Source of the DNA: Arenicella xantha
GTDB lineage: Bacteria > Pseudomonadota > Gammaproteobacteria > Arenicellales > Arenicellaceae
DNA: 64,000 nucleotides
Direction of reading: 5' to 3'
Assembly (NCBI RefSeq): GCF_003315245.1
Contig: NZ_QNRT01000002.1
Span: 1,162,206-1,226,205, forward strand
Each line of letters opens with the position of its first letter. The stretch's first letter is position 1. Made by a program: the position numbers and the translations under genes. The notes beneath the pieces were generated by a model. The model saw only the letters and a program-made list of their open reading frames with translations, did not search any database and was not told the origin of the DNA. Positions 7,642 to 23,502 of the stretch are shown in pieces.

Positions 7642-8745
7642 TTAGACGAACTCCAACTTATTGTTAGGTCGTGCGAGGCGGTTACTTAGCCCGTGTTCAA
7701 GGCTATTTCCAAAATTAGTTTGCTCGAGCAGCTCATCTACTGCGCGGGTATCGTCGAGGCTGGCATAGTAGTCCATTGGACGTTGAAACATCCACAAAGC
7801 GTACGGGAGCACCACTCGTTCAGCCTCAACCCCCTCGACCACAAAACTATGCGAACCAATAAAGCGGTCGATTTGTGTTTTATTCGGGTTTGCTTGCCGC
7901 CATTCATTCAATCGCTGATCGGTATCCAATAACACAGGTAACTGCTCCTTGGACATCCGACGCAAAATGGCGAGAATCGTATCTGGCACTTCGTCATCAT
8001 CCAGCCACTGCCCTGATTCCAGTGCAACCTCACTATCCATCATGCGATGAACCCAAGCAACCAGTGCCGGCGCCTTGGTTTTCATTAATTTACCCGGCGC
8101 TGGGTCACGATATAGGTGAGCATACATAGGACCAATTAACCCAAAGTCGGCAATGCATGGTTTAGAGCCAAGCAAGTAATCATATTGCTCAAAATGCGCC
8201 TGAAGGTCATCCAGCAACGCTGAATAGGAGGTCTCGAGCGCGCTAATATTGTGCTCGCGAATCCCCAGATTGGGAACGAATCCTTGGAAACGGCTACCTA
8301 CTTTTTTACCCAAGTAGCGTTTCACGAAACCCGGCGCATTGGGCATTACCAGCGAACCAAATTCACCAAAGATAAAATGATTATTGGTTGCTGGATAGTT
8401 CCAACGATAATGCATTGCCGGAATCACTAACCATTCATCAGCATAGACTTCGAGCAATAAGGCTGCGAGTTTTTGTTTAGGCGTCTCAGGATACACAGAC
8501 GACGATTGAAAGCGTGATTCGAGCTCGTCAATAATCGTAGTGGTATCCTGAAACACTTCATCATCAGGGGTTTGCAGAACCGGCACATAGCGCACACCGG
8601 TACGCGGAATAATGAACTTTTTATAAACGCTTAGAGTGGCAAGAGTCTCTTCAAAAGGAATCCCTTTTTTAAGTAAATAAGAACGCGCCTTGCCCGTATA
8701 AAGCGAGAATTTAGTGCCATATAACCGATAGCAAACCTCCGTCAT
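7642..8745 (-). CDS. Long glutathione S-transferase-family protein
   Basis: Protein of 367 residues, starting at the ATG at 8745, which overlaps the thiolase stop (TAATG). An open frame with 16 more residues exists, but it would lie inside the thiolase gene. Residues about 5-80 form the thioredoxin-like GST domain (YRLYGTKFSLYTGKARSYLLKKG, a VPVLQ cis-proline and a DTTTIIDELE glutathione-site motif). An alpha-helical domain follows to about residue 230, and then an extra C-terminal region of about 130 residues. Typical GSTs are near 210 residues, so this is a long form. Its role in an acyl-CoA cluster is unknown; glutathione addition to or isomerisation of an unsaturated intermediate is possible. 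Confidence 0.8.
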   Translation of the reverse strand: MTEVCYRLYGTKFSLYTGKARSYLLKKGIPFEETLATLSVYKKFIIPRTGVRYVPVLQTPDDEVFQDTTTIIDELESRFQSSSVYPETPKQKLAALLLEVYADEWLVIPAMHYRWNYPATNNHFIFGEFGSLVMPNAPGFVKRYLGKKVGSRFQGFVPNLGIREHNISALETSYSALLDDLQAHFEQYDYLLGSKPCIADFGLIGPMYAHLYRDPAPGKLMKTKAPALVAWVHRMMDSEVALESGQWLDDDEVPDTILAILRRMSKEQLPVLLDTDQRLNEWRQANPNKTQIDRFIGSHSFVVEGVEAERVVLPYALWMFQRPMDYYASLDDTRAVDELLEQTNFGNSLEHGLSNRLARPNNKLEFV

Positions 8746-9923
8746 TAGGCGACCTCGAACAATCCTGCCGCGCCCATACCGCCACCAACACACATGGTGA
8801 CTACAACGTATTTAACACCACGACGCTTGCCTTCAATTAAAGCGTGGCCAATCATTCGAGAGCCACTCATGCCGTAAGGATGACCGATTGAAATCGCGCC
8901 ACCATTGACGTTTAGTTTGTCATTATCGATTCCCAATTTGTCACGACAATAGATAACCTGCACCGCGAATGCCTCGTTGAGTTCCCACAGCCCAATATCA
9001 TTGATCGTCAGACCATTTTGCTTAAGCAATTTAGGAATCGCAAATACCGGCCCGATACCCATTTCATCAGGTTCACAACCCGCTACGGCCATGCCTCGAT
9101 AGATACCCAATGGCTCTAAGCCGCGCTGCTCTGCTAGTTTGGAATCCATCACTACTTGCGCTGAGGCTCCATCCGATAGCTGCGATGCATTGCCGGCAGT
9201 AATAGTGCCACCTTCAACCACGGTTTTTAGACTAGCTAAGCCTTCAGCGGTAGTTGCACGCAAGCCCTCGTCTTGGCTCACTGTGACCGCTTGTTTGCTC
9301 GCTTCTTTCGTTTCTTTGTCATACACAATTTTAGTGCAATCAACTGGCACCAATTCATCACTGAAATGACCAGCTGCGTAACCAGCAGCAGTCCGCATCT
9401 GTGACTGCAGGCCATATTCATCCATCGCTTCACGAGAAATACCGTAGCGTTTAGCCACTGTTTCAGCGGTTTGCAACATCGGCATATAGACGTGCGGATG
9501 CATGGCCAAAAGCTCAGGATCAGCCGCTCGGTACATATTCATTTTGTCGTTCTGCGTAAGACTAATACTGTCGACACCACCACCAATCACGGTTGACATA
9601 CCGTCTACCAATACTTGTTTGGCCGCGGTCGCCACCGCCATCAATCCCGATGAACATTGACGGTCGATGGTCATGCCCGATACAGAAGTCGGCAGCCCTG
9701 CGCGCAACGCGATTTGACGAGCAATATTCTGCCCAGAAGCACCTTGTTGTAGCGCCGCCCCCATAATCACGTCGTCGACTTCAGCTGGATCCAGACCAGC
9801 ACGCTGTACCGCAGCGCTAACTGCAGCCGCGCCTAATGTAGCGGTATTGAGGTCATTAAATCCACCACGATACGCTTTACCAATTGGCGTGCGAGCAGTT
9901 GAGACAATCACAGCATCTTTCAT
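8745..9923 (-). CDS. Acetyl-CoA C-acyltransferase (thiolase)
   Basis: Complete thiolase of 392 residues. The nucleophile cysteine is in DRQCSSGL (about residue 92), the active-site histidine in [14 protein letters not shown], and the second cysteine in [18 protein letters not shown] is also present. It is a different paralogue from FadA at the window edge and is translationally coupled to the GST gene downstream by overlap. Within this cluster it most likely cleaves the 3-ketoacyl-CoA made by the hydroxyacyl-CoA dehydrogenase encoded upstream. Confidence 0.92.
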
Positions 9924-10011
9924 AATTTACTCCTTCTTTCTAATTTGTTCGGTTGTAGCGCACGATATATCGGCGCAGCGGTGCCGCTTGAAGCGGGCAT
10001 TTATCGCTCTG

Positions 10012-10905
10012 CTAAGGTTGCAAAAATTCCGCTTGGGCGAATTCTGGCTTAGGGTACTGATAAAACCCTTCGCCAGTTTTAAAACCTAACTTACCTTGGT
10101 CAATATACGACTTTAATAGTTCGGCAAAACGCTGACTCGCGGCATCAGGTTGACTGTTCGCGATATGCCACGCGGTATCGAGACCAATTTGATCCAACAT
10201 GCCAAACGGGCCCGCTGGCGTACCAAAGTTACCCATAAATGACCGGTCGATGTCCTGAATGCTTCCAGCTTCATCGATTAATAGTTCAGCCGCCTTTCCC
10301 AAGATCGACATCAACATGGCGTTATACAAGTAACCCGGCGTCTCTTTTTGCACATGCACGGGAATCTGGTTAATTCGGCGACCAAACTCCATTAGCAACT
10401 CGACGACCCGTGGATCTGTTGTGGCGTGCGGCATAACATCTACCACCACCTGATTAAACACATCGTGGAAATGAAAAGCACAGAACATCGCTGGTTCACG
10501 CACCGAATCGACCAGTGCTGAAGGCATTAAAAACGAGGTATTACTTGTTAAAATAACCCCAGGTGCCAACTTCGGCGTCAGAGTTTGATAAAAACTATTT
10601 TTCAACTCAACATCTTCGGTAACTGACTCACTGACCAAATCCACGCCAACTACCGCCTTGTCTAGGTCGTTGGTATAGCTAAGGTTAGCGGGCACCAACT
10701 CGGCTTGTGCCGAGGTGATTTTTTGATTCTTGAGCAGCCCTTTAAGCAAGTAACCGTGCAGCCCTTGAGCCGATTCTAATTGTGACTCACTAATGTCGAA
10801 TAAAGTGACCTTATAACCATCCAGTGCGCAACGCAGTGCGATCCGTAAACCCAATGTGCCGGCCCCCGCGACCAGCACATGGTTGATTTGATCAACAGTC
10901 TTCAT
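10012..10905 (-). CDS. 3-hydroxyacyl-CoA dehydrogenase family protein
   Basis: NAD-dependent dehydrogenase of 297 residues with the Rossmann motif GAGTLGLRIALRCALDGY near residue 14. The usual HFFNP catalytic loop reads FHFHDVFNQVVVDVMPH: the histidine is kept but the Asn-Pro pair is replaced. The C-terminal helical domain is present (ETPGYLYNAML, GPFGMLDQIGLDTAW). The gene overlaps the acyl-CoA dehydrogenase upstream by four bases. The variant loop puts it in a subgroup of short hydroxyacyl-CoA dehydrogenases, and the natural substrate may differ from plain fatty acyl chains. Confidence 0.88.
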   Translation of the reverse strand: MKTVDQINHVLVAGAGTLGLRIALRCALDGYKVTLFDISESQLESAQGLHGYLLKGLLKNQKITSAQAELVPANLSYTNDLDKAVVGVDLVSESVTEDVELKNSFYQTLTPKLAPGVILTSNTSFLMPSALVDSVREPAMFCAFHFHDVFNQVVVDVMPHATTDPRVVELLMEFGRRINQIPVHVQKETPGYLYNAMLMSILGKAAELLIDEAGSIQDIDRSFMGNFGTPAGPFGMLDQIGLDTAWHIANSQPDAASQRFAELLKSYIDQGKLGFKTGEGFYQYPKPEFAQAEFLQP

Positions 10906-12038
10906 GCCGCGTATGCCGCATGATTGAACTTTTTCTGAAACGAGGTTTGATCCCCGAACAACAAATTGATCATCATTAGTCGCTTCACATAGTGGCCAAC
11001 ATCAAGCTCGTCAGTCAGCCCCATGCCACCATGCAACTGAATCGCTTCATCGCCGATTAGCTTGCCGTTTTTAGCAATCAAGGTCCGCAATGCGGTAACG
11101 ACTTTAGCCGCACGTTGCTCGCTGGTGGAATCATCCGTCAACTCGCAAAGCGCCCCAACTAATAGCGACTTAGATTGCTCAAACGCCATAAACATGTCTA
11201 CCATGCGGTGCTGCAACGCCTGAAACGACGAAATAGTCACACCAAACTGTTTGCGTGTTTTAGTATATTCGACGGTGGTTTTGTTTAATTTTTCCATAAT
11301 GCCAACCGCCTCGGCGCTTAATGCAATATGCACTAACCCCATGACTTCTTGCAAAATGGCATAGCCGCCACCAAGCTCCGACACAAGTTCAGCTGGCGCG
11401 CCATCAAAATCGATATCCGCGGCTTGTTGACCATCCATTAATGGGTAGCCATTGCACTTAACGCCACTGGCATCCGCATCCAACAAAAACAAGCTTAAAC
11501 CTGTCTCGTCGGTTTGTTCACCAGAGGTTCGAGCTAACACTATTAATTTTTGTGCTTGCGGCCCACCAAGCACCATCGACTTAGTACCGGATAAAGAATA
11601 GTTATCGCCATCTACAGTCGCGGTTACAGCCACATTACTAGCATCAAATCGAGATTGGACTTCGCTGATCGCCGCGGCGCCCATAAGGCTGCCGTCAATC
11701 ACCTGCCCGAGCAACTCGGCCTTGTTGCTTGCCGTGCTGCGCTCCAGCAATCCACCAAATAAAACCAAATTAGGAAATACTGGCTCAACCACTAAGGCTT
11801 TGCCGAATTCTTGCATAATCGCCGCAATATCGATGACACTGCCACCGTAACCACCATGCTCTTCGGCGAATGGAACAGACAACCATCCGAGCTCCGCAAA
11901 GGTGGCCCAATGCGCGCGACTAAACCCATCATCGTTATTCATACTGGCACGTCGTTGATCAAAGCTATAGTTGTCTTGCGCCCATCGAACGATGCTCTCT
12001 TTGAGCAAATTTTGCTCTTCGCTATATTCAAAATTCAT
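10902..12038 (-). CDS. Acyl-CoA dehydrogenase, probable non-catalytic partner subunit
   Basis: Acyl-CoA dehydrogenase fold of 378 residues with N-terminal, middle and C-terminal domains. The FAD-contact motif YTKTRKQFGVTISSFQALQHRM is kept. At the helix-G position where isovaleryl-type enzymes carry the base there is His237 (GLVHIALSAEA). At the MCAD-type position the motif reads LLFGDQTSF, with no glutamate. So no catalytic glutamate is visible at either usual place. Together with the adjacent paralogue (12-base gap), this resembles the heteromeric alpha2beta2 dehydrogenases of steroid side-chain degradation, in which only one subunit is catalytic. That parallel is inference. Confidence 0.88.
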   Translation of the reverse strand: MNFEYSEEQNLLKESIVRWAQDNYSFDQRRASMNNDDGFSRAHWATFAELGWLSVPFAEEHGGYGGSVIDIAAIMQEFGKALVVEPVFPNLVLFGGLLERSTASNKAELLGQVIDGSLMGAAAISEVQSRFDASNVAVTATVDGDNYSLSGTKSMVLGGPQAQKLIVLARTSGEQTDETGLSLFLLDADASGVKCNGYPLMDGQQAADIDFDGAPAELVSELGGGYAILQEVMGLVHIALSAEAVGIMEKLNKTTVEYTKTRKQFGVTISSFQALQHRMVDMFMAFEQSKSLLVGALCELTDDSTSEQRAAKVVTALRTLIAKNGKLIGDEAIQLHGGMGLTDELDVGHYVKRLMMINLLFGDQTSFQKKFNHAAYAA

Positions 12039-12050
12039 TGTTCTACTCTC

Positions 12051-13226
12051 CTACAATCCAAGTACGGCTTTGGCAATAACATTGCGCTGAACCTCGTTTG
12101 ACCCACCATAAATAGTCGCTGCTCGACCATACATGTAAGAACGTCGAGCGGTAGAGCCACGACGATGTAGATCATTCTGATATTCATCTTGGCGTAACGC
12201 ACCGGCATAAGCGCCAATCGCTTGCATCCGGAGCTCTTGTAAGGCCTGTTGGATCTCGGTGCCTTTGATTTTCAGTAACGACGCTTCAGGACCAGGGGTT
12301 GCTCCGGATGACAATGATGCCAACACTCGCAAATCCATATACTCCAAGGCCATCAACTCAATTTCAATATTGGACAAGCGCGTTTGGAATAACGGGTCAT
12401 CGATCAAACGACCATTCGCATTAGTCTGCGTCTTAGCAAGTTCAACAATCTCGCGTAAAGCACTTTTGCTATCGCCAACTGCGGCAATTGAAGTACGCTC
12501 ATGCGCCAACAAGGCCTTCGCGTAAGTCCAACCCTGATGCTCACTGCCGATCAAGTTTTCCGCCGGTACCCGAACATTGTCGAACACAACCTCGTTGAGA
12601 CTGTGATAGTTATCGATTGAGTGGATTGGGTTGACAGTGATTCCTTCGGACTTCATGTCAATCAAAAGGAAACTAATCCCCTGCTGACGTTTGTCGAAAC
12701 TTCCGGTGCGAACTAAGCAGAAAATCCAATCAGCGAACTGCGCATAGGTAGTCCAGATTTTCGCACCGCTAACGATGTAATCATCGCCGTCTTTGACTGC
12801 TCGTGTCTGCAAAGCCGCTAAATCAGAACCAGCACCTGGCTCGGAGTAGCCCTGACACCACCAATCTTCGCTATTGAGAATACGCGGTAGAAATTTTTCT
12901 TTTTGCGCATCCGAACCAAAAGTGAAGATCACTGGCGCAACCATTTTCAAGCCAAATGGCACTACGTCCGGTGCGCCCGCAGCGCAACGTTCAGCTTCGA
13001 AGATAAATTTCTGCACCGGTGTCCAGCCTGTGCCGCCATACTCTACCGGCCAATCGGTTGCGACCCAGCCTCGTTCGTTGAGCTTTTTCTGCCACTCTAC
13101 TGAAGTGCTTTTTACGTCGATGCCATCTTGCACGCGTGCGCGCAGATCGGCGGTAAATTCTTTCTCAAAAAAATCACGGACTTCTTTTTGAAACTCAAGG
13201 TCCGCCGATGAAAAACTATTGTCCAT
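12051..13226 (-). CDS. Acyl-CoA dehydrogenase, probable catalytic subunit
   Basis: Acyl-CoA dehydrogenase of 391 residues and the first gene of the degradation cluster. The middle-domain motif QGYSEPGAGSDLAAL and the C-terminal IYGGSNEVQRN are clear. The MCAD-type glutamate is replaced by Gly (YGGS), but Glu243 in LLAHERTSIA sits at the helix-G position used as base in isovaleryl-CoA dehydrogenase and in FadE26-type enzymes. It is therefore probably the active subunit of a pair with the following gene. Its upstream gap to argB is 86 bases, and I see no convincing promoter or terminator there. Confidence 0.9.
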   Translation of the reverse strand: MDNSFSSADLEFQKEVRDFFEKEFTADLRARVQDGIDVKSTSVEWQKKLNERGWVATDWPVEYGGTGWTPVQKFIFEAERCAAGAPDVVPFGLKMVAPVIFTFGSDAQKEKFLPRILNSEDWWCQGYSEPGAGSDLAALQTRAVKDGDDYIVSGAKIWTTYAQFADWIFCLVRTGSFDKRQQGISFLLIDMKSEGITVNPIHSIDNYHSLNEVVFDNVRVPAENLIGSEHQGWTYAKALLAHERTSIAAVGDSKSALREIVELAKTQTNANGRLIDDPLFQTRLSNIEIELMALEYMDLRVLASLSSGATPGPEASLLKIKGTEIQQALQELRMQAIGAYAGALRQDEYQNDLHRRGSTARRSYMYGRAATIYGGSNEVQRNVIAKAVLGL

Positions 13227-13312: not shown

Positions 13313-14146
13313 CTAATTTTGAATTAGACGAGTACCGGCCAAGCCTTTGCCTGTTGCGACGTCTAAAAAACCGCCTTTGTCGCTAGCATTCACAATCGCA
13401 ATAACGCCAACCCCTTGGTTTAAAAGACTAAATGACTCCCTTAGCTTCGGAATCATGCCATCCGTAATGACGCCGTCGCGTATCAGCTGCTCGGCGAGTT
13501 CCGCATCAATATGCTTAAATCGGCTGCTTGGTTGAGCGATATCAGCAAACACGCCACCTACCTTGGTCGACAGAATCAGCAGATCCGCCTGCAGTGCCTT
13601 GGCAATTGCCGTTACTGTGGTATCAGCATTAATATTGAACACCTGACCTTGATCACTAACGCCGAGTGACGCGATAACCGGCACAAAGCCAGCACTTAGC
13701 AAACACTCAATCGCGGCGACATTAATTGAGACAACATCACCGACCTCACCTAAATCAACAATACCCTGCGCGCCAAAATCCATCGGCGGGCGCTTGCGGG
13801 CTTCAATCAGCTTGCCAGAAGCTCCGTGACAACCAAAGGCTGCAATGCCATTACCAATCAGGCTGCGAACTAGGTCAACATTGACTTCACCGCACAAGGC
13901 TTGCTTTACCACCGTCAAATCATCTTGGTTAGTAACCCGTCGACCATCGACTTTAGTTGGCGTTAGTCCGTGCACGGCTTGTAGACGGTTTAGTTGTGGC
14001 CCGCCACCGTGTAACACCACGCAATACCAGCCGGCATCGAGTAAATCTCGAATATTATCGGCTAAGCCAATGCGGTCCGACGGATCCTCAAGCATATCCC
14101 CGCCAACCTTAATCACCGCGATCCGCTTACCATTAATGCTTGTCAT
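13313..14146 (-). CDS. argB: Acetylglutamate kinase family protein
   Basis: Amino-acid kinase of 277 residues that phosphorylates the side-chain carboxyl of an N-acylated glutamate. Seen are the ATP-site VIKVGGDML, the substrate loop VVLHGGGPQ, DGRRVT, FNINADTTV and DGMIPKL. The start is the ATG at 14146, with GGAG eight bases upstream; a longer frame would overlap argC. The gap to argC is 13 bases. There is no fused acetyltransferase domain. It is the last gene of the astA-astB-astE-argC-argB run, so it may act on N-succinylglutamate rather than only N-acetylglutamate, and possibly in the reverse, ATP-forming direction. That is inference; the acyl preference cannot be read from the sequence. 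Confidence 0.9.
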   Translation of the reverse strand: MTSINGKRIAVIKVGGDMLEDPSDRIGLADNIRDLLDAGWYCVVLHGGGPQLNRLQAVHGLTPTKVDGRRVTNQDDLTVVKQALCGEVNVDLVRSLIGNGIAAFGCHGASGKLIEARKRPPMDFGAQGIVDLGEVGDVVSINVAAIECLLSAGFVPVIASLGVSDQGQVFNINADTTVTAIAKALQADLLILSTKVGGVFADIAQPSSRFKHIDAELAEQLIRDGVITDGMIPKLRESFSLLNQGVGVIAIVNASDKGGFLDVATGKGLAGTRLIQN

Positions 14147-14159
14147 GTCAGTGCTCCGC

Positions 14160-15254
14160 TTATGGCCACATTCCAGGCTGTTGAAGCTCGTAAGCATTTG
14201 AGTGCCCGGTCATCAAATTAAAATTTTGCATTGCCTGCCCTGCGCCACCTTTAATCAAGTTATCCAACGCAGCTATCGCACACAGCGTGCGCTGGCCCGA
14301 CACCTCGTCAGTTTTTATGTCTAAACCAATTTCAATGCGCAGAGTATTTTTTACCGATACCACCTCTGGCGTCATACCTTTCGGCAACACTGAAATTAAT
14401 GGAAATTGCTCAAAATACTTAACATACTGCGCTCGCAACTCATCTTCAGACACATCAAGAGGCGCATCCAGCTGCGCAATCGACATCATGCCGCGACTCA
14501 AGGGCGCCGACACCGGCACGAAATCGAGCGAAACATTGTCGCCACCAGCGGCCGCAAGCGTCTGTAAAATCTCTGGCGTATGTTGATGATTAAACACTTT
14601 ATACGCTTTTAAATTATTACTGCGGATAGTGTGATGATTGCCCGCTTGCGGATGTACGCCTGAACCGCTTGATCCAGTAAGGGCAACTAAACGCACAGTG
14701 CTACCCGACAATTGCCCAGCACTCGCCAAAGGCAATAATGAAGCAGCGATACAAGTAGCAAAGCAACCAGGGTTGGCTACATATTTAGCGTTCTTAATCT
14801 GCTCAGCATACAATTCCGGCATCCCGTAGACAAAAGTCCCAAGCCGTTCGGGACACGGATGCTCCGGCGCATAAACTCGAATGTAATCAGCCAAGTTCTT
14901 GAGCCTAAAATCGCCTGACAAGTCAATAATTCGAACATCGGTATCAAATAATTCCATCGCCACTTTAGCGGTGATGATGTGTGGCATGGCCAAAAATACG
15001 ATATCCGCGCCTTCGACGCACTCCCGTGGCGAAATATCCTCTAACACCAAGTCGCTCAAGCCGTAAAAGCTACGATGCACTTGCCCAATATTTTGGCCTA
15101 TATGATCTTTACTCGATACACGTAAAATCTCTACATCATCACGACTCAGTAAATTGCGTAGCAGTTCTGCCGATAAAAAACCCGAGCCGCCAATAATCGA
15201 CACCTTAGTTTTCACTAAGTTAGTTTTTGCGTTGCTAGTTTGGTTGTTTGTCAT
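14160..15254 (-). CDS. argC: N-acyl-gamma-glutamyl-phosphate reductase
   Basis: Phosphate-dependent semialdehyde dehydrogenase of 364 residues, starting at the ATG at 15254 with GGAG upstream. The NADP motif SIIGGSGFLSAELLR is at the N-terminus, the nucleophile is Cys164 (NPGCFATC), and the substrate loop contains SRGM and FNHQHTPEI. From memory, the loop TGSSGSGVHPQAGNHH and the DNLIKGGAGQAMQNFNLM ending resemble Bacteroidetes-type ArgC, a group in which succinylated intermediates occur; a tree is needed to test this. It follows astE by 87 bases on the same strand. In biosynthesis it reduces acylglutamyl phosphate; the reaction is reversible. Confidence 0.92.
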   Translation of the reverse strand: MTNNQTSNAKTNLVKTKVSIIGGSGFLSAELLRNLLSRDDVEILRVSSKDHIGQNIGQVHRSFYGLSDLVLEDISPRECVEGADIVFLAMPHIITAKVAMELFDTDVRIIDLSGDFRLKNLADYIRVYAPEHPCPERLGTFVYGMPELYAEQIKNAKYVANPGCFATCIAASLLPLASAGQLSGSTVRLVALTGSSGSGVHPQAGNHHTIRSNNLKAYKVFNHQHTPEILQTLAAAGGDNVSLDFVPVSAPLSRGMMSIAQLDAPLDVSEDELRAQYVKYFEQFPLISVLPKGMTPEVVSVKNTLRIEIGLDIKTDEVSGQRTLCAIAALDNLIKGGAGQAMQNFNLMTGHSNAYELQQPGMWP

Positions 15255-15341
15255 AACTTGGCTCCTAATGGTGAACACCATTCATTCTTGGTTTTGTCTA
15301 GTCGGCGCTTTATCTCATTGAAACAAAGTCACGATGTCTAA

Positions 15342-16349
15342 TTAGTCGATTGGGTCAAGCTCGGTTGGCGCGACAACCAGCATGGCGCGCTGCCCCGGCG
15401 GCACATTGGTAATGGGAAATACAAAGCGCTCACCATCTTGCTGGGTCCGATACTCATAGCCCTCATCACTGGCAAGCAGAGAACCTTTGGGATACTCAGT
15501 GAAATTCTTCGCCTCAGCCGGTATATGCAGTTGAAACGCTTCACTACGCTTAATGACTTCTTCTACAACAGCAAACAATTTTATTGATTTAGGCGTCTGT
15601 TTGAATAACTCTTGACCTGCTATCACGCGACGCAATCCAGCAGAAATAGCTGAAAAATTAGTCATATCATTGTCACCAAATTGCCTAACTTTACCCAGTT
15701 CAATCGTGAACGAGTCGGCCTCGTGAAGGTGACTTGTATGATAAGAGTAAGTTCCAGAAGGTTGCTTAGAAAACAAAACGGCTTCGATTCCACATTGCTC
15801 TAAGAAACCGATTTGCGGCGCAGACCATGTCCGCGAATGCAGGTAAGGATAGACCGCGAATTTTTCGATTTGCGATCCCCGAATAGCGGTATGTAAATCA
15901 TAGTGCAACCGAGGCTCATCACCAGCAGTAAAGAACGCTTCAGTGACCTGCTCAATTTGCGCTGCTCGTAGCGACTCTAGTGATCGAGACGACTGGTGTT
16001 TACCGGAAAATAAACGATTGAGGTTTTCTTCTATGAATCGCTCTGCGGCCACCGCTGCTGGCGGATTACCAATAACAATCAACAATTCATTATTGACCGT
16101 CAACTCGCCAGCAACAATATCACCGACAATCGCATCAACAATTTCCATTGGCGCCGTCTCATTGCCGTGAATCCCACAAGAAATTAGCACTCGGTGCGTG
16201 CCGGGCTGACTTGGAGATACTCGTAACAATCCCGTATCCAGTAAGCGCAGCGTAGTCCCATCAGGGAGTAATTGCTCACGTGCAGGTGTTTCATTAGGCT
16301 GTGCTAGGGTATCCGCCAGAAACCGCATCGGCTTAACGCTGAAATTCAT
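15342..16349 (-). CDS. astE: Succinylglutamate desuccinylase
   Basis: Zinc carboxypeptidase-like enzyme of 335 residues that splits N-succinylglutamate into succinate and glutamate, the last AST step. Ligands are visible in [10 protein letters not shown] (His and Glu) and [11 protein letters not shown] (His), and the catalytic Glu is probably the one in FTIELGKV. The ATG at 16349 has AGGTG six bases upstream and overlaps the astB stop by 17 bases; a GTG nine bases earlier is the alternative. The coupling to astB is typical of ast operons. Related aspartoacylases deacylate other N-acyl amino acids, so some activity on N-acetylglutamate is possible. Confidence 0.92.
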
Positions 16350-17673
16350 AAAAGGCACCTAGGCTAAATAACTGAGTTAACTCATCTAATGCTGTAAAAC
16401 ACTCAACCGCTAACTCGGGGTCGCTCAAATCAGCAGCAACAATTTCATCTCGATAATGACGTTCGACCCAAGCATTCAACTGATGAAATCGCTCGTCTGT
16501 TAACAAAAATTCCGAGTTCAGCGCCGCTAGTTCATTTTCGTTCAGTGCGACGCGAAGACGCAAACAAGCCGGTCCACCACCATTTTGCATACTCTGGCGT
16601 ACATCAACAAAACGAATCTCTTGGATCGGTGTGTCGGCCGCTTCTAAGCTTTGTAAGTACGCATACACTTCTGCGTTTTCACGACTCTCTTGTGGCAATA
16701 TCAAAGCCATACCTTGGCGACCAGGAAGTTGCACTAATTGCGAATTAAACAAATATGATTTTACCGCCGATTCCAAGGAAACTGCCGAGGTGGGCACTTC
16801 GATAAAGTGCAACTCATCGTCACCGTACTTTGCCTGCAATTCTCGCTGCATCTCGGCCTTATTCACGAAGGCTTCTTCATGCATAAAAAAAGTATTCAGA
16901 TTTGACACACTCACTACGTCGTTATGGAACGCGCCGGCATCAATGATCTTGGGACTTTGTTGGGCATAAACTACGCGCTCGGGACTGAGCTTATGCAAGC
17001 GACTAATAGCCTGAGATGCTTCATATGTTTGTCGGCTGGGAAATTTTGCTGGTGCTAATTTATTGGCGCGAAACGCATACCGCCCAAACACAAACAGCTG
17101 AACTCCTGGCGCGCCATACTGTGCCGCGAATCGATTATGGTTTGCCGCACCTTCATCACCAAAATGACTGCCCGACGGCAATGCTTCATGATGTTGAAAG
17201 TACTGTTCATCGGCAAACATAGCTGCCAGCAACCGACTGGTAGATTGATGCTCAATAGAACGATGAAACATACTGGATAGATTAGCCGCAGTGAAATGCA
17301 CTTTACCATCGGCAGAATCTGCACTTGGCGATACCGTGCAAGCATTTGCGGTCCACATACACGAAGCTGAATAACAGCTCGCCAAAAGTTCAGGAGCGCT
17401 GTTTGCTGCTTGACGAATCATACTGGCGTCAGACCCACTAAACCCGAGCCGGCGTAAAGTCGGCAGATGGGGTCGCTGTTGAGGCAACAAAACACCTTGC
17501 TGTAAACCAAGGCTACGTAAATGCTGCATTTTTTGCAGCCCTTGCAACGCCGCTTGTTTGGGATATGCAATCTTTAGCGCATTGGTTTTAGACGCCACAT
17601 TACCGTGCGATAAGCCCCCATAGTTATGTGTGGGTCCAATCAAACCGTCAAAATTGACTTCGTAGCTGTTCAT
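16333..17673 (-). CDS. astB: N-succinylarginine dihydrolase
   Basis: Hydrolase of 446 residues (about 447 in E. coli) converting N2-succinylarginine to N2-succinylornithine, two ammonia and CO2. The pentein active-site residues can be placed at Glu174 ([13 protein letters not shown]), His250 ([12 protein letters not shown]) and Cys370 ([12 protein letters not shown]). The N-terminal segment [16 protein letters not shown] is characteristic. It lies 22 bases after astA and overlaps astE. Full length and intact. Confidence 0.96.
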
Positions 17674-17695
17674 AGTGAAAACCCGTTTTGATGTG

Positions 17696-18724
17696 CTATT
17701 TCTTGCTTGTTGAATTGATCAAGTAACGTATTGAATCACCCAATTCAATACCCAAGCCTTTAAGCGTAGCTCTAGGTAAGCGGACGCCACCTTTTTCAAC
17801 TGAAATTCGGCTGATTGCAGTGGTAAAAGACGCGATATCCGAAGTGGCAATCACCGCCTGTTCGTCACCATCATATTCAGAAATCCCGATAACTTCGGCC
17901 AGCTCGCTGTGTTTAACCGACTCAATGTCATCAATTTTAGTATCCACACTTGGGGCAGCATCAAAAATATCGACATGCCCATTCCAACGAAACCCTTCAT
18001 TTTCCAACATTTGCATCGCCGGTTTACCCACAACATTAGGCTGGCCAATCACCGCCTGTGCCGCTGCAGGCAACATATTTACGTAAATCGGCTGCTTTGG
18101 CATTAAATCAGCAATAAACTGATTGCCATGAATCGCACCATAGAGGTCCGCTTCGGCAAAGCCCATTTCAAAAAAATGACTGCCAACGGCATCCCAAAAC
18201 GGCGAATTACCCTGCTCATCAAAGTAACCGCGCAGATCTGCCATCACTCGCTCAGGAAAACGTTCACGGAACTGCGCCATAAACAGATAGCGCGTACGAG
18301 CAAGTAATTTGCCATTGCCGTTTTTGCGATAACGCTTGTCTAAGTAGAGCGTTGCCACCTCAGAAAAACCCTCGAAGTGATTTGACAAATTAAGCATTTC
18401 AAACGTGACCTTTTTATCCAATTCCTTGCAGGAATGTGTCACTTTATTGAGCTTATAAGAATAAAACTCATCTTTGCTGCCGAGACAGGCGATGATGGCG
18501 GCCGTACCGACAATAGCGCCAGACTCTAGATCTTCCATGACTAAGAAATAAGTTTGGTTGCCAGGCTTGTCAATAGTTTGAGCGATGCTCTCAATTGAAT
18601 TAGACAATTTAGCGGTCAACACACTGCGGTCTGGCGGCAATGTGGTCATTCCTGGGTACGCCTGCTCAGCAAGCCCTAATACGCCGTCAATGTCGTCTTG
18701 TCTTGCGGTTCTAACAATAATCAT
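17696..18724 (-). CDS. astA: Arginine N-succinyltransferase
   Basis: GNAT-fold enzyme of 342 residues that moves succinyl from succinyl-CoA to the alpha-amino group of arginine, the first AST step. The N-terminus [19 protein letters not shown] and the segments [21 protein letters not shown] and FFEMGF are AstA hallmarks. The start at 18724 is set by an almost perfect Shine-Dalgarno (GAGGAGGAGA) seven bases upstream. It is the first gene of the ast-arg run. The 190 bases upstream, to the LytTR gene stop, hold no ArgR box that I can recognise. Confidence 0.96.
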
Positions 18725-18914: not shown

Positions 18915-19628
18915 CTAGAAACTTAAGCGCTTTTTTAACTCAGAGGCATTGCGTCGAGAGACCTCAAGCACTTTGCCATCACTCATGGTGAGCTCATAAC
19001 CGTCGCCAATGCCTTCATCGATAGCCACTATCGCATTCAAGTTAACAATGTATTGACGGCTTGCGCGAAAAAAGTGTCGCTTGGGGAGTCGCGTTTCTAC
19101 GGTATTGAGCGACTTTTTTACAAATGCCTTCTGCTCATCGAAGAACACGATGACGTAATTCTTACAACTCTCGAAATACCGAATAGAACCGAGCGTTACT
19201 AAATGACAGTCATCACCATCTTTAATAAACATCTTGCTGGTGATTTCCAACGGCTCACTAGAGGCCGCATCCACCAAACCGCGCGGCGATAATTTATCAA
19301 TAGCGTCACCTAGACGCTCTTGACTAATAGGTTTGAGCAGATAATCAACTGGATTGTAGTCAAACGAGCGATAGGCGTATTCTGAATATGCCGTGGTGAA
19401 TACCACACGTGGCGCGTAGTCCAGCTTATCGAGAAGCTCAAACCCGCTTTCACCTGGCATATGAATATCCAAAAACAATACGTCAGGACGATGGGTATTG
19501 ATTAGCACCAAAGCCGTTGCCGGATGGTCCGCCGAACCGACTACTTCGATAGCGTCAAATTCAGCCAACATCCTAAGCAAACCTTCACGCGCCAAACGTG
19601 AGTCCTCAATAACGACAGCCTTCATCAT
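18915..19628 (-). CDS. LytTR-type response regulator
   Basis: Response regulator of about 237 residues. The receiver domain spans residues 1-115 with phospho-acceptor Asp54 (VLFLDIHMPG) and the conserved Lys in DYLLKPI. A LytTR DNA-binding domain follows at about residues 140-237, with FFRASRQYIVNLNAI. Two consecutive ATGs (19628 and 19625) overlap the kinase stop, so translation is coupled. The partner is the kinase encoded immediately upstream. Relatives (AlgR, LytR, BtsR) control cell envelope, exopolysaccharide or nutrient uptake genes. The target is unknown. Confidence 0.92.
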   Translation of the reverse strand: MMKAVVIEDSRLAREGLLRMLAEFDAIEVVGSADHPATALVLINTHRPDVLFLDIHMPGESGFELLDKLDYAPRVVFTTAYSEYAYRSFDYNPVDYLLKPISQERLGDAIDKLSPRGLVDAASSEPLEITSKMFIKDGDDCHLVTLGSIRYFESCKNYVIVFFDEQKAFVKKSLNTVETRLPKRHFFRASRQYIVNLNAIVAIDEGIGDGYELTMSDGKVLEVSRRNASELKKRLSF

Positions 19629-20746
19629 GCGACGGTCCTCGGCAAACTTATTGCGGCACAAAATCGCCCATCAGCCACTGATGTGACTAGGCTTGCCGAT
19701 TCACCGTACAACAACTGCAAACGCTGGCGAATATTGCGCAGTCCAATCCCAGTATTATCAGGCCCAACTGATCGCGATGATGGAATGTCATTACATACTG
19801 TCAACGTAAAAGATTGCGCATCCTGTCGTGCCGTAACTTCTACACTACCGCCATTTTGAATTTGCTCTACACCGTGTTTAACGGAATTCTCGACTAACAT
19901 TTGCAGGATCATCGGCGGCACCATTTGATTATTCAAACTGGGGTCAATGGTCATCGAAAACCGCAATCGATCTTCGAATTGAATTCGCACAATTTCGATA
20001 TAGCGATCGATGATTGCCATCTCCTGTTGCAGCGGCAACGTTTCTTGCTTGCTACTCTCTAACGAATAACGCAGCACTTCAGACAAAGACATCAACATCG
20101 CCTCGGCCTGACGCGCATCCTCCAAAATCATGAAACGGATATTATTAAGCGCATTAAATAAAAAGTGCGGATTGAGTTGATTCGACAGACTGCTTAGCGT
20201 CGCTTCTTTAAGACTATTTTGTAATTTTAAGTTATCCAGCTCGGCGCTCTTGGCGCGTCGACTGCTAGTGATCCCTAGGTATAAAGCAGCCCATGTGGCC
20301 AAATACACATTAGTCTGTACCCAATTCGCCAAAATAAACTTCCATATTACTTGGAAGCTCGTCGCATCTGGATCGTCCGCTTGCTTAATCGCTAGTAGGT
20401 CGCTCAAATAAAATGGCAAACACAGAATAGCCATAATCAGCACAACGATGATCGAGACAATCATCACTAGCAACAGGCCTTTCAATATTTGTTTGCTCAC
20501 GCCCAACCCTTCTAGGCGATAGCGATGATATCGTTGGCGCAGCACCAGCCCGGCAAAAAAGAAACCGACAATCCAAATGCTATTGGCGGCCACGGTTAGC
20601 CCAACCATGCCGCGATCACCAAACAAAAACCACAACAATGAAAAGATCATTATTAGCAGGGATACCCCAGCAAATTGGCAAGCGTAAAAACGCCAGCTCG
20701 CCGAGAATAATGATCTGCTTAAAAGTTTATTGACTGAGTTTTGCAT
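19625..20746 (-). CDS. LytS/YehU-type sensor histidine kinase
   Basis: Membrane kinase of 373 residues. Four hydrophobic segments lie at about residues 22-42, 50-70, 88-115 and 138-160, with only short loops, so no large periplasmic sensor domain is present. A short coiled region leads to the His_kinase domain with phospho-acceptor His194 (LNPHFLFNALNNIRFM). The ATPase follows with ENSVKHGVEQI and GIGLRNIRQRL motifs. The gene begins seven bases after a secreted-protein gene and overlaps the response regulator gene. Lack of its own sensor domain makes the neighbouring exported protein a candidate input. Confidence 0.92.
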   Translation of the reverse strand: MQNSVNKLLSRSLFSASWRFYACQFAGVSLLIMIFSLLWFLFGDRGMVGLTVAANSIWIVGFFFAGLVLRQRYHRYRLEGLGVSKQILKGLLLVMIVSIIVVLIMAILCLPFYLSDLLAIKQADDPDATSFQVIWKFILANWVQTNVYLATWAALYLGITSSRRAKSAELDNLKLQNSLKEATLSSLSNQLNPHFLFNALNNIRFMILEDARQAEAMLMSLSEVLRYSLESSKQETLPLQQEMAIIDRYIEIVRIQFEDRLRFSMTIDPSLNNQMVPPMILQMLVENSVKHGVEQIQNGGSVEVTARQDAQSFTLTVCNDIPSSRSVGPDNTGIGLRNIRQRLQLLYGESASLVTSVADGRFCAAISLPRTVA

Positions 20747-21423: not shown

Positions 21424-21912
21424 TTATAGGTCAACTAAGATATCGAGCGGATACCCTGAGAAGTCTTTAGTTCGCTCCAGAATAATCAATGTATTCATCT
21501 TGGCGATGCCGATATTGCTCTTAAGAATGCCTTCACTGGTCCGGTTATAGCTTTTCACATCAGTACAGACGAATTTCAATAAGTAGTCGTAGGCACCACT
21601 GATTTTGTAACTATCCGTTACTTCGCGAATCTCTTGCACCGCCGCATCGAAACGCTCAAAATCCTCTGGAAAATGGTTTTCCAACGTTACTTCAGCGAAC
21701 GCTTCCACATGCGGAGCGAGCTTCTCCAGATCGATTTCAGTAAGGTAACGTTTAAGAAGCCCTTCACTTTCCAAACGCTTCACACGACTCAGACACGCGC
21801 TTGCCGACAAATGCACTTGCTCGGCCAACTGCTGATTGGTAATTCGAGCATTCTTTTGCAAGATAGTTAGAATTTTTAGGTCGATCTTATTTATTTTGCT
21901 TAATTCAGTCAT
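21424..21912 (-). CDS. Lrp/AsnC-family transcriptional regulator
   Basis: Regulator of 162 residues with an N-terminal winged helix-turn-helix (about residues 8-60, KIDLKILTILQKNARITNQQLAEQV) and a C-terminal RAM domain (about 75-155) with the G-A-Y-D motif (KISGAYDYLLKFVC). These proteins form octamers and often answer to an amino acid. The gene is divergent from a class III aminotransferase across 198 bases, so the likely targets are itself and that aminotransferase. An octamer CGCAGAAT occurs twice in the intergenic region, but no clear operator dyad was found. Confidence 0.93.
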   Translation of the reverse strand: MTELSKINKIDLKILTILQKNARITNQQLAEQVHLSASACLSRVKRLESEGLLKRYLTEIDLEKLAPHVEAFAEVTLENHFPEDFERFDAAVQEIREVTDSYKISGAYDYLLKFVCTDVKSYNRTSEGILKSNIGIAKMNTLIILERTKDFSGYPLDILVDL

Positions 21913-22110: not shown

Positions 22111-23502
22111 ATGGTGCCAACTATGCCTGCCGAACCAAAAAATCTAAAACAAATTGATGCGGATAGCATTCTGCATCCGTCTACGAATGCCAACGAATTT
22201 GCTAAGACCGGCTCGAGGATTATTCAAAGCGGCAAGGGAATTTACTTAGAAGACACCGACGGCAATCGTCTTATAGATGCGGTAGCTGGGTTGTGGTGCG
22301 TAAATGTCGGCTATGGCCGGCCCGAGATCGCCAATGCGATGCACAAAGCAGCGACTGACCTTAGCTATTATCATACGTTTACCGGTATGTCGAACGTACC
22401 GCAAATCGAGTTAGCCGAGCGTTTACTGGCGATCGCACCAAACAATATGTCGAAAGTCTTTTTTGCCAGTGGCGGTTCTGACGGCAATGACAGCTTGATG
22501 AAAATCGTGTGGTACTACCACAATCTAATCGGCAAGCCCGAAAAGCGTAAAATCATCTCCCGCTGGCAATCCTACCATGGCACCTCGATCGCCACGGCTA
22601 GCCTCACTGGTCTACCGTCGTTCCATAAAGATTTCAACTTACCGATCGAAGGCGTATTACATACCGAATCACCCGATTACTTTAGGCACGGCAAACCTGG
22701 AGAATCTGAACTAGATTTTTCGAAACGTCGCGCGGCTGAACTTGAAGCACTTATTCTTCAGCATGGGCCAGAAACAGTCGGCGCCTTCATCGCTGAACCG
22801 GTCATGGGCGCTGGCGGCGTTATCACACCGCCAGAAGGCTATTTCGCAGAAATACAGAAGGTCACTAAGAAATATGACATCTTATTTATCGCCGACGAAG
22901 TCGTCTGTGGTTACGGACGATTAGGCACGTGGTTTGGCAGCGAAGTGTACGATATAAAACCCGACATGATCACCACGGCTAAAGCCCTGACTAGCGGCTA
23001 CTTTCCGTTCTCTGCCTCGTTTATCACTGAACAAATATGGGATGTGATTAAGCAAGGCTCAGCGAAATATGGCAGCTTCGCGCACGGCTACACTTATGCC
23101 GGACATCCGATTGGTGCCGCGGTTGCGATGGCAAATCTCGATATTATTGAAAACGACGGCTTGATTGCTCAGTCTGCCGATGTAGGGCAGTATTTTCATA
23201 CTCAGCTTAATCAGCGATTCGCTAATGACCCGTTTGTCGCTCAGGTTCGGGGGCAAGGAATGCTGGCGGCGGTTCAACTGATGCAAGATAAAGACAGCAA
23301 AACCTTTTTTGACCCAGCCATCAAGATAGCACCAAGCGTTACCGTTAAGTGTTACCAAAATGGGTTGATAGCGCGACCTCTGCCATCGGTTGACTCAGTG
23401 GCCTTTTCGCCACCGCTAGTGACGTCAAAAGCGCAGGTAGACGACATCGTGAATATTTTCGAAGCGTCGGTGCGAGACGTTATGCAACAACACGGCTTGT
23501 AG
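22111..23502 (+). CDS. Class III (omega) aminotransferase
   Basis: PLP-dependent transaminase of 463 residues. Markers are the glycine loop GGSDGNDSL, the PLP-stacking EVVCGYGRLG with the Asp of FIADEV, and the Schiff-base Lys in TTAKALTSGYFPFSA. Sequence style is that of omega-amino acid or putrescine:pyruvate aminotransferases (SpuC and beta-alanine type), which use pyruvate as acceptor and diamines or omega-amino acids as donors. A true AstC/ArgD succinylornithine transaminase looks less likely but is not excluded. The first ATG (22111) and another at 22123 are both possible; neither has a good Shine-Dalgarno. Control by the divergent Lrp-type gene is likely. Confidence 0.9.
   Translation: MVPTMPAEPKNLKQIDADSILHPSTNANEFAKTGSRIIQSGKGIYLEDTDGNRLIDAVAGLWCVNVGYGRPEIANAMHKAATDLSYYHTFTGMSNVPQIELAERLLAIAPNNMSKVFFASGGSDGNDSLMKIVWYYHNLIGKPEKRKIISRWQSYHGTSIATASLTGLPSFHKDFNLPIEGVLHTESPDYFRHGKPGESELDFSKRRAAELEALILQHGPETVGAFIAEPVMGAGGVITPPEGYFAEIQKVTKKYDILFIADEVVCGYGRLGTWFGSEVYDIKPDMITTAKALTSGYFPFSASFITEQIWDVIKQGSAKYGSFAHGYTYAGHPIGAAVAMANLDIIENDGLIAQSADVGQYFHTQLNQRFANDPFVAQVRGQGMLAAVQLMQDKDSKTFFDPAIKIAPSVTVKCYQNGLIARPLPSVDSVAFSPPLVTSKAQVDDIVNIFEASVRDVMQQHGL

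Follow-up and report, generated by a model that had tools for sequence, protein, structure and literature searches.

A stretch of 64,000 nucleotides of the Arenicella xantha genome (RefSeq assembly GCF_003315245.1, contig NZ_QNRT01000002.1, positions 1,162,206 to 1,226,205; hereafter the window, meaning this whole stretch) carries on its minus strand a run of genes in which astA, astB and astE, of the arginine succinyltransferase (AST) pathway, are followed by copies of argC and argB. Because the chemistry of AstA and AstB serves arginine breakdown, the semialdehyde formed downstream of them must be disposed of, and the question raised by this locus is what takes the place of AstD. A preliminary description had put forward that ArgC and ArgB might do so, working in reverse. 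The comparison of genomes reported here supports that idea, with the pair replacing astD in 13 genomes against five that keep it, and with an ordinary argC and argB elsewhere in the A. xantha genome. We call the operon copies ArgC2 and ArgB2, as opposed to the ordinary pair of the genome, and consider it quite probable that together they replace AstD in an AST variant with a two-enzyme, ATP-forming dehydrogenase step.

Gene content and proposed pathway

Window proteins were assigned to families with NCBIfam models and their own cut-offs. The first gene of the run, astA (17696..18724, on the minus strand like the other four), encodes an arginine N-succinyltransferase at the subfamily level (TIGR03243, 373 bits, cut-off 284); its product stays below the cut-off of the equivalog TIGR03244 (339 bits against 391), as does AstA of one astD-bearing congener (378 bits), and matches one solved chain, 1yle. 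Then come astB, for N-succinylarginine dihydrolase (16333..17673; TIGR03241, 678 bits, cut-off 538), and astE, for succinylglutamate desuccinylase (15342..16358; TIGR03242, 358 bits, cut-off 306). The last two genes are argC2, a paralogue of N-acyl-gamma-glutamyl-phosphate reductase (14160..15281; TIGR01850, 310 bits, cut-off 234), and argB2, a paralogue of N-acylglutamate kinase (13313..14146; TIGR00761, 188 bits, cut-off 151). Judging from the matches to solved structures (1e-38 to 2bty for ArgB2 and 4e-50 to 1xyg for ArgC2), the folds of both are not in doubt. The astE frame starts with a GTG at 16358, and an alternative ATG at 16349 gives a 17-base overlap with astB; argC2 starts at 15281, and an alternative ATG at 15254 gives an 87-base gap to astE. 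With these alternative starts the coordinates agree with the spacing of -17 to 87 bases originally described for the five genes, which fits one operon, and the run astA-astB-astE-argC-argB is real and intact.

The window had been described as lacking astC and astD, and the search of the whole genome (4.44 Mb, 99.3% complete) also finds neither over the cut-offs. The best of seven matches to the astD model in the genome reaches 228 bits against a cut-off of 579, and none of the seven falls within the window. The negative for astC rests on TIGR00707, the model of the ArgD/AstC family, the astC model TIGR03246 itself not having been run on the genome. TIGR00707 gives five matches, one of them, an ArgD-family gene, over the cut-off and outside the window (C1:908346), adjoined by an ArgI-like gene (L185); the match within the window is a class-III aminotransferase (22111-23502, here TAm), absent from the preliminary description, with 215 bits against a cut-off of 410. 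A second, ordinary argC (424 bits, the operon copy having 310) and a second, ordinary argB (256 bits, against 188) are present, and the identities between operon and ordinary copies are 33% and 36% for the argC/argB pair. A complete astCD pair elsewhere, together with no other argB or argC, had been named as the situation contrary to the proposal; the genome presents the opposite one. Since a second argC and argB are present and astD is absent over its cut-off, the ordinary copies would serve biosynthesis and the AST route would have no dehydrogenase of its own.

The pathway proposed for this operon shares with AST of E. coli (astCADBE) the enzymes AstA, AstB and AstE, the N-succinyl intermediates and the products glutamate and succinate. 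AstA would succinylate arginine and AstB would convert the product to N-succinylornithine, two NH3 and CO2, after which a transaminase, most likely TAm or else the single ArgD, would yield N-succinylglutamate semialdehyde. The difference from E. coli lies in the next step, where an ArgC/ArgB-type pair stands in place of AstD: with NADP+ and phosphate, ArgC2 would turn the semialdehyde into N-succinyl-gamma-glutamyl phosphate with formation of NADPH, and ArgB2 would transfer the phosphate group to ADP. The products would be ATP and N-succinylglutamate, and AstE would split the latter into succinate and glutamate, pulling the product away. We infer in this scheme the direction of the reactions, the specificity for succinylated substrates and the ATP yield. 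The oxidation of aldehyde to acid by AstD saves no energy, and aldehyde oxidation coupled to ATP formation should be downhill here, as in glyceraldehyde-3-phosphate dehydrogenase (GAPDH) and phosphoglycerate kinase; the gain over the AstD route would be one ATP per arginine, offsetting the succinyl-CoA spent by AstA. The principle is that of GAPDH and phosphoglycerate kinase, from aldehyde through acyl phosphate to carboxylate with ATP, although the substrate is another and NADP rather than NAD is expected, so that this is an analogy and not membership. With biosynthetic ArgC-ArgB the operon pair has in common the families, the catalytic residues and the adjacency of the genes; it would differ in the proposed opposite direction and the succinylated substrate, and does differ in forming separate clades next to Myxococcota and in an ArgB2 without arginine-feedback motifs.

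In a search that left most subscription papers and bioRxiv preprints outside, no paper describing ArgC or ArgB in AST was found by title or abstract opening; the portions available of a regulon survey (PMC5343134) and of a paper on ArgB-ArgC of M. tuberculosis (PMC8220418) have no bearing on it. ArgC2/ArgB2-type AST is a variant without an earlier report in the literature searched, and its mechanism is a well-founded prediction. If the scheme is true, a textbook catabolic step has been taken over by a reversed biosynthetic pair that recovers ATP, which would be a clear example of gene recruitment reversing a pathway, and this may have happened more than once. Annotations would need correction as well, since automatic pipelines would probably score a second arginine biosynthesis set and a broken AST in the largely marine Arenicella, Porticoccaceae and Kangiellaceae.

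Distribution of the pair, astB and astD

Near relatives were analyzed in a sample of 31 genomes, that of A. xantha and 30 others, 18 of which have astB. Thirteen of these 18 have ArgC2 and no astD (the hybrid genomes), and the remaining five, three of them Arenicella, have astD (659-776 bits) and no argC of the ArgC2 type (Fisher 1.2e-4 for 13 and 0 versus 0 and 5, kinship ignored); both types occur inside the genus Arenicella. A single contig holds the full order astA-astB-astE-argC2-argB2 in 11 of the 13 hybrid genomes, window included. In G007 argC2 is truncated by the end of its contig, and the G017 operon is spread across two contigs. Because the order is whole in 11 genomes and interrupted by contig boundaries in the remaining two, it is not a matter of chance. 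Conserved order alone proves little, given that a cluster with acyl-CoA dehydrogenases downstream of argB2 also keeps its place in nine of the 11 hybrid genomes whose contig reaches that far, and this is what might be said for two unrelated operons that happen to abut. Such an accident is hardly credible: the gaps span only -17 to 87 bases, Porticoccaceae, IMCC1989 and an Exilibacterium metagenome-assembled genome (MAG) share the order, and the pair occurs together with astB also in genomes where the genes are dispersed.

Outside the genus, the pair was located by scanning genome contigs with the ArgC2 alignment. Among the best 80 of 173 relatives, identities of at least 61% were found in Arenicella, Porticoccaceae/Cellvibrionales, the Exilibacterium MAG, IMCC1989, Kangiella, other Kangiellaceae, Pleionea, Aliikangiella, Colwellia RSH04 and several other MAGs, one of which is titled Desulfobacterales; the next tiers within those 80 are Myxococcota-type records at 45-47% and then values below 40%. 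The 29 genomes behind such loci comprise 23 with ArgC2 (531-706 bits) and six of Myxococcota type (342-357). An astB match is present in each of the 23, over the cut-off in 19, at 492-496 bits in two and as contig-edge fragments of 325 and 58 bits in the last two, and 20 have no astD over the cut-off; no astB match was found in any of the six Myxococcota-type genomes. For the genus and the outside genomes combined, astB is matched in 36 of 36 ArgC2 genomes, 33 of them without astD over the cut-off, these counts not being independent owing to kinship. The pair is adjoined by astA, astB or astE, or by a contig end, in 15 of the 23 outside loci. A strict mutual exclusion of astD and the pair was also considered and was rejected beyond the genus, both being present in three of the 23 genomes. 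Other argC copies in same-order genomes without astB (G020, G028, G029) were checked and are not ArgC2, with at most 177 bits versus at least 487 for ArgC2 rows.

As a control, an even sample of 369 genomes was taken across the class, with an ArgC2 threshold of E 1e-90 or better. ArgC2 is present in four of them, all Arenicella, and astB in 23, those four included; 15 of the 19 astB genomes without ArgC2 have astD within the stretch fetched around astB. The comparison of 3/23 with 15/19 (Fisher 2.6e-5) is indicative only, as kinship is ignored and a whole-genome search is set against adjacency.

Several results weigh against a replacement of AstD by the pair. Colwellia RSH04 and two Kangiellaceae MAGs, among the 23 outside genomes, carry astD too, and as these three show, the pair can supplement AstD instead of replacing it; G052 has in addition an astD match of 372 bits, below the cut-off. 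In Colwellia sp. RSH04 (L102) astC-astA-astD-astE-argC2-argB2 form one run and astB lies elsewhere (L180), so that both routes are found in one organism. Eight of the 23 outside loci (L109-L112, L114-L116 and L118, two of them at contig ends) show a stretch without astA or astB near the pair. It speaks for a replacement, on the other hand, that in G045, G048, G053 and G051 astA and astB lie elsewhere with an AstC-like gene and no astD among them, and in G051 also with an M20 hydrolase. Four of the 19 control genomes have no astD near astB, and such a lack is not telling by itself. Within the genus ArgB2 diverges faster than ArgC2, with identities to the window copy of 50-70% versus 77-89%, and no residue marking a succinyl preference was found in the comparison of ArgB2 rows. 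Furthermore, six general aldehyde dehydrogenases in the A. xantha genome score 157-228 bits to the astD model and could act instead. One of these might replace AstD and leave ArgC2 and ArgB2 an accessory function, for instance in the buffering or re-use of succinylglutamate, and the three genomes that hold astD together with the pair would fit such an arrangement. We find it unlikely, because none of the six lies within the window, no further gene stands between astA and argB2 in the hybrid operons of Arenicella and Porticoccaceae, and astD and the pair mostly exclude each other.

The distribution of other argC genes bears on the second reading offered in the preliminary description, in which ArgC2 and ArgB2 work in the forward, biosynthetic direction and make arginine or ornithine via succinylated compounds with AstE as deacylase, as in Bacteroides. 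The pair is homologous to biosynthetic enzymes, astE-argC2-argB2 lie apart from astA and astB in three of the eight loci mentioned (L110, L111, L114), and a succinylated route is described for Bacteroidota in the portion available of the GapMind paper, which cites ArgB of B. fragilis as an N-succinylglutamate kinase (PMC7311316); Bacteroidota and the operon pair would have in common ArgB/ArgC relatives that handle N-succinyl intermediates. The route is biosynthetic there, and the Bacteroidota sequences fall into other clades than the pair. An ordinary argC is found in 12 of the 13 hybrid Arenicella genomes (as two pieces on two contigs in G003), G005, which is 82% complete, being the one without it. 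Of the outside genomes, 16 of 23 have a second argC, 12 directly (two with one in-frame stop codon) and four in arg clusters. No second argC was seen in the other seven (G037, G040, G046, G047, G050, G051, G052), a point in favor of forward synthesis, with a search threshold that also missed the divergent argC of G039 and the like; G051 has another argB inside an arg cluster, and G040 and G046 (completeness unknown) are also without argG over the cut-off. Against forward synthesis, the pair is kept in an uncultured Kangiella genome (completeness unknown) without argG, and accompanies astB in 36 of 36 genomes. Forward synthesis finds little support in these data, with a tree placement apart from Bacteroidota, astB in every genome with the pair and other argC genes in most, and we hold it to be quite unlikely.

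The arg clusters of G039, G045, G048 and G053 are separate from the pair and contain an argF-like gene, argG, argE, a long argB, argC and argH, an order that we take to be that of Xanthomonas; G047 has part of one. Arginine biosynthesis clusters with a long (440-481 aa) ArgB-type gene were seen at L169, L170, L172 and L173, in one Kangiella, two Aliikangiella and one unnamed gammaproteobacterium.

Phylogeny and residues of ArgC2 and ArgB2

Trees were built for ArgC, ArgB and AstB by quick searches, with SH-aLRT support only. ArgC2 (35 rows) forms one clade with a support of 99 and Myxococcota as neighbour (90), and ArgB2 (34 rows) likewise forms one clade (100) next to Myxococcota (99); Bacteroidota ArgC and ArgB sit in other clades. 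Tree rows exclude the repeat loci L035, L036, L039, L089-L093, L095, L117 and L194-L197 and open reading frames (ORFs) under 280 aa for ArgC and 220 aa for ArgB, so that the cut ArgC2 of L070 and the ArgB2 of L099 are missing. The ArgC tree further excludes L037, L135, L155 and 13 ordinary gammaproteobacterial rows, and keeps 20 distant-genome rows of a larger number; the ArgB tree excludes L034, L187 and 11 rows from groups already present, includes frame-extended Myxococcota rows and had columns filled in under half of its rows removed. A fusion of ArgC and ArgB in Myxococcota, hinted at by long ORFs, was rejected, as the two are separate ORFs in different frames.

In the AstB tree, by comparison, ArgC2-bearing loci fall into three groups: Arenicella/Porticoccaceae/Exilibacterium, Kangiella/Pleionea, and IMCC1989, which stands on a long branch among rows of the astD type. 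There are at least three label changes on starred branches, loci with the pair elsewhere being labelled 'neither'. Because AstB of the ArgC2 loci is found in three groups and ArgC2 and ArgB2 each form one clade, the trees suggest repeated recruitment of one enzyme pair into AST; gains and losses are not separable, and the claim is of three groups and not of three gains. As for the wider picture of an energy-conserving AST, we think it reasonably likely that an acquired biosynthetic-type pair, lacking the usual feedback motifs, was reversed and became part of AST in at least two lineages, so that arginine breakdown yields ATP through substrate-level phosphorylation, an alanine-forming omega-transaminase taking over from AstC in one branch.

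The residues C173, Y227, H232 and H234 of ArgC2 are invariant in 35 of 35 rows, and those of ArgB2 that match K8, G11, R66, N158, N160, D162 and K217 of E. coli are kept in 34 of 34. Two patterns, an N-terminal helix motif and a C-terminal arginine-site motif, which we take to be marks of arginine-sensitive kinases, are each present in 12 of 18 ordinary ArgB rows, and both are visible in the ordinary ArgB of the A. xantha genome, versus none of the 34 ArgB2 rows. The N-terminal helix of such kinases is mentioned in the part available of PMC3236213. An ArgB2 without feedback motifs might fit an enzyme needed when arginine is plentiful, a weak support because both motifs are also missing from E. 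coli, 12 Bacteroidota, six Myxococcota and five long ArgB rows. An Arg next to R66 was considered as a succinyl signature of ArgB2 and dropped, since it also occurs in 6/6 Myxococcota and 4/18 ordinary rows; Bacteroidota have H, L or Q there.

Members of the ArgC and ArgB families mostly use N-acetyl substrates. Together with the lack of a succinyl-specific residue in the comparison of ArgB2 rows, this would agree with a pair that acts on N-acetyl intermediates and connects arginine catabolism with the pool of acetylglutamate. Against this, AstB and AstE as encoded here exceed the cut-offs of models whose names specify N-succinyl substrates, and none of the operon genes has a known role in forming acetylated intermediates, which renders an N-acetyl role very unlikely; a succinylated substrate for ArgC2 and ArgB2 remains the reading that we prefer.

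Transaminase, regulators and neighbouring genes

The gene for TAm, assigned by aminotransferase family matches (22111..23502, plus strand), points away from the operon in the window. It is found near the operon in 12 of the 13 hybrid Arenicella genomes, G012 having a different aminotransferase (275 bits) there. In all five Porticoccaceae/Cellvibrionales loci where this stretch is visible (L096, L098-L101), TAm stands on the same strand, 46-53 bases before astA, and is followed by astB, astE, argC2 and argB2. Six other loci (L102-L104 and L106-L108; Kangiella, Pleionea-like and Colwellia) have an AstC-like gene (550-574 bits to typed AstC) and no TAm. Because TAm lies inside the Porticoccaceae operons and an AstC-like gene is present instead at the Kangiella, Pleionea-like and Colwellia loci, TAm probably replaces AstC in the conversion of succinylornithine to succinylglutamate semialdehyde, a further difference from E. 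coli that would hold for Arenicella and Porticoccaceae and not for Kangiella, Pleionea and Colwellia. Among solved structures, those closest to TAm carry the names 4-aminobutyrate transaminase or class-III aminotransferase. In E. coli, AstC and ArgD can stand in for each other, according to the portion available of PMC3590144, and the single ArgD may therefore be a fallback for the AstC step.

Between the operon and TAm lies a gene for an Lrp/AsnC-type regulator (21424..21912, minus strand; NF008370 Lrp, 107 bits, below the cut-off of 233), probably a local regulator, with a homologue near TAm in 11 of the 13 hybrid Arenicella genomes. Between this gene and astA, at 18915-20746, there is a response regulator (best match BtsR, below the cut-off) with an adjoining kinase-like gene, which has no NCBIfam match and whose assignment is tentative. 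The two occupy the same place in L068, L076 and L077, and the remaining hybrid loci show no homologue at this position.

In the astD-bearing congener L080 the operon consists of an argD-like gene, an M20 hydrolase (PRK07338), astA, astD and astB, and L079 and L081 match it in gene sizes and order; astE is not there, and the M20 hydrolase is a probable substitute for AstE in these congeners. An M20 homologue also stands beside astA-astD-astB in nine of the 15 astD loci of the class sample.

Downstream of argB2, at 8745-13226, the window contains two acyl-CoA dehydrogenases, a dehydrogenase-like gene (3-hydroxyacyl-CoA type) and a thiolase-like gene, as judged by eye. The acyl-CoA dehydrogenase pair, not seen in G013 and G014, follows argB2 in the other nine of the 11 hybrid genomes whose contig shows this region.

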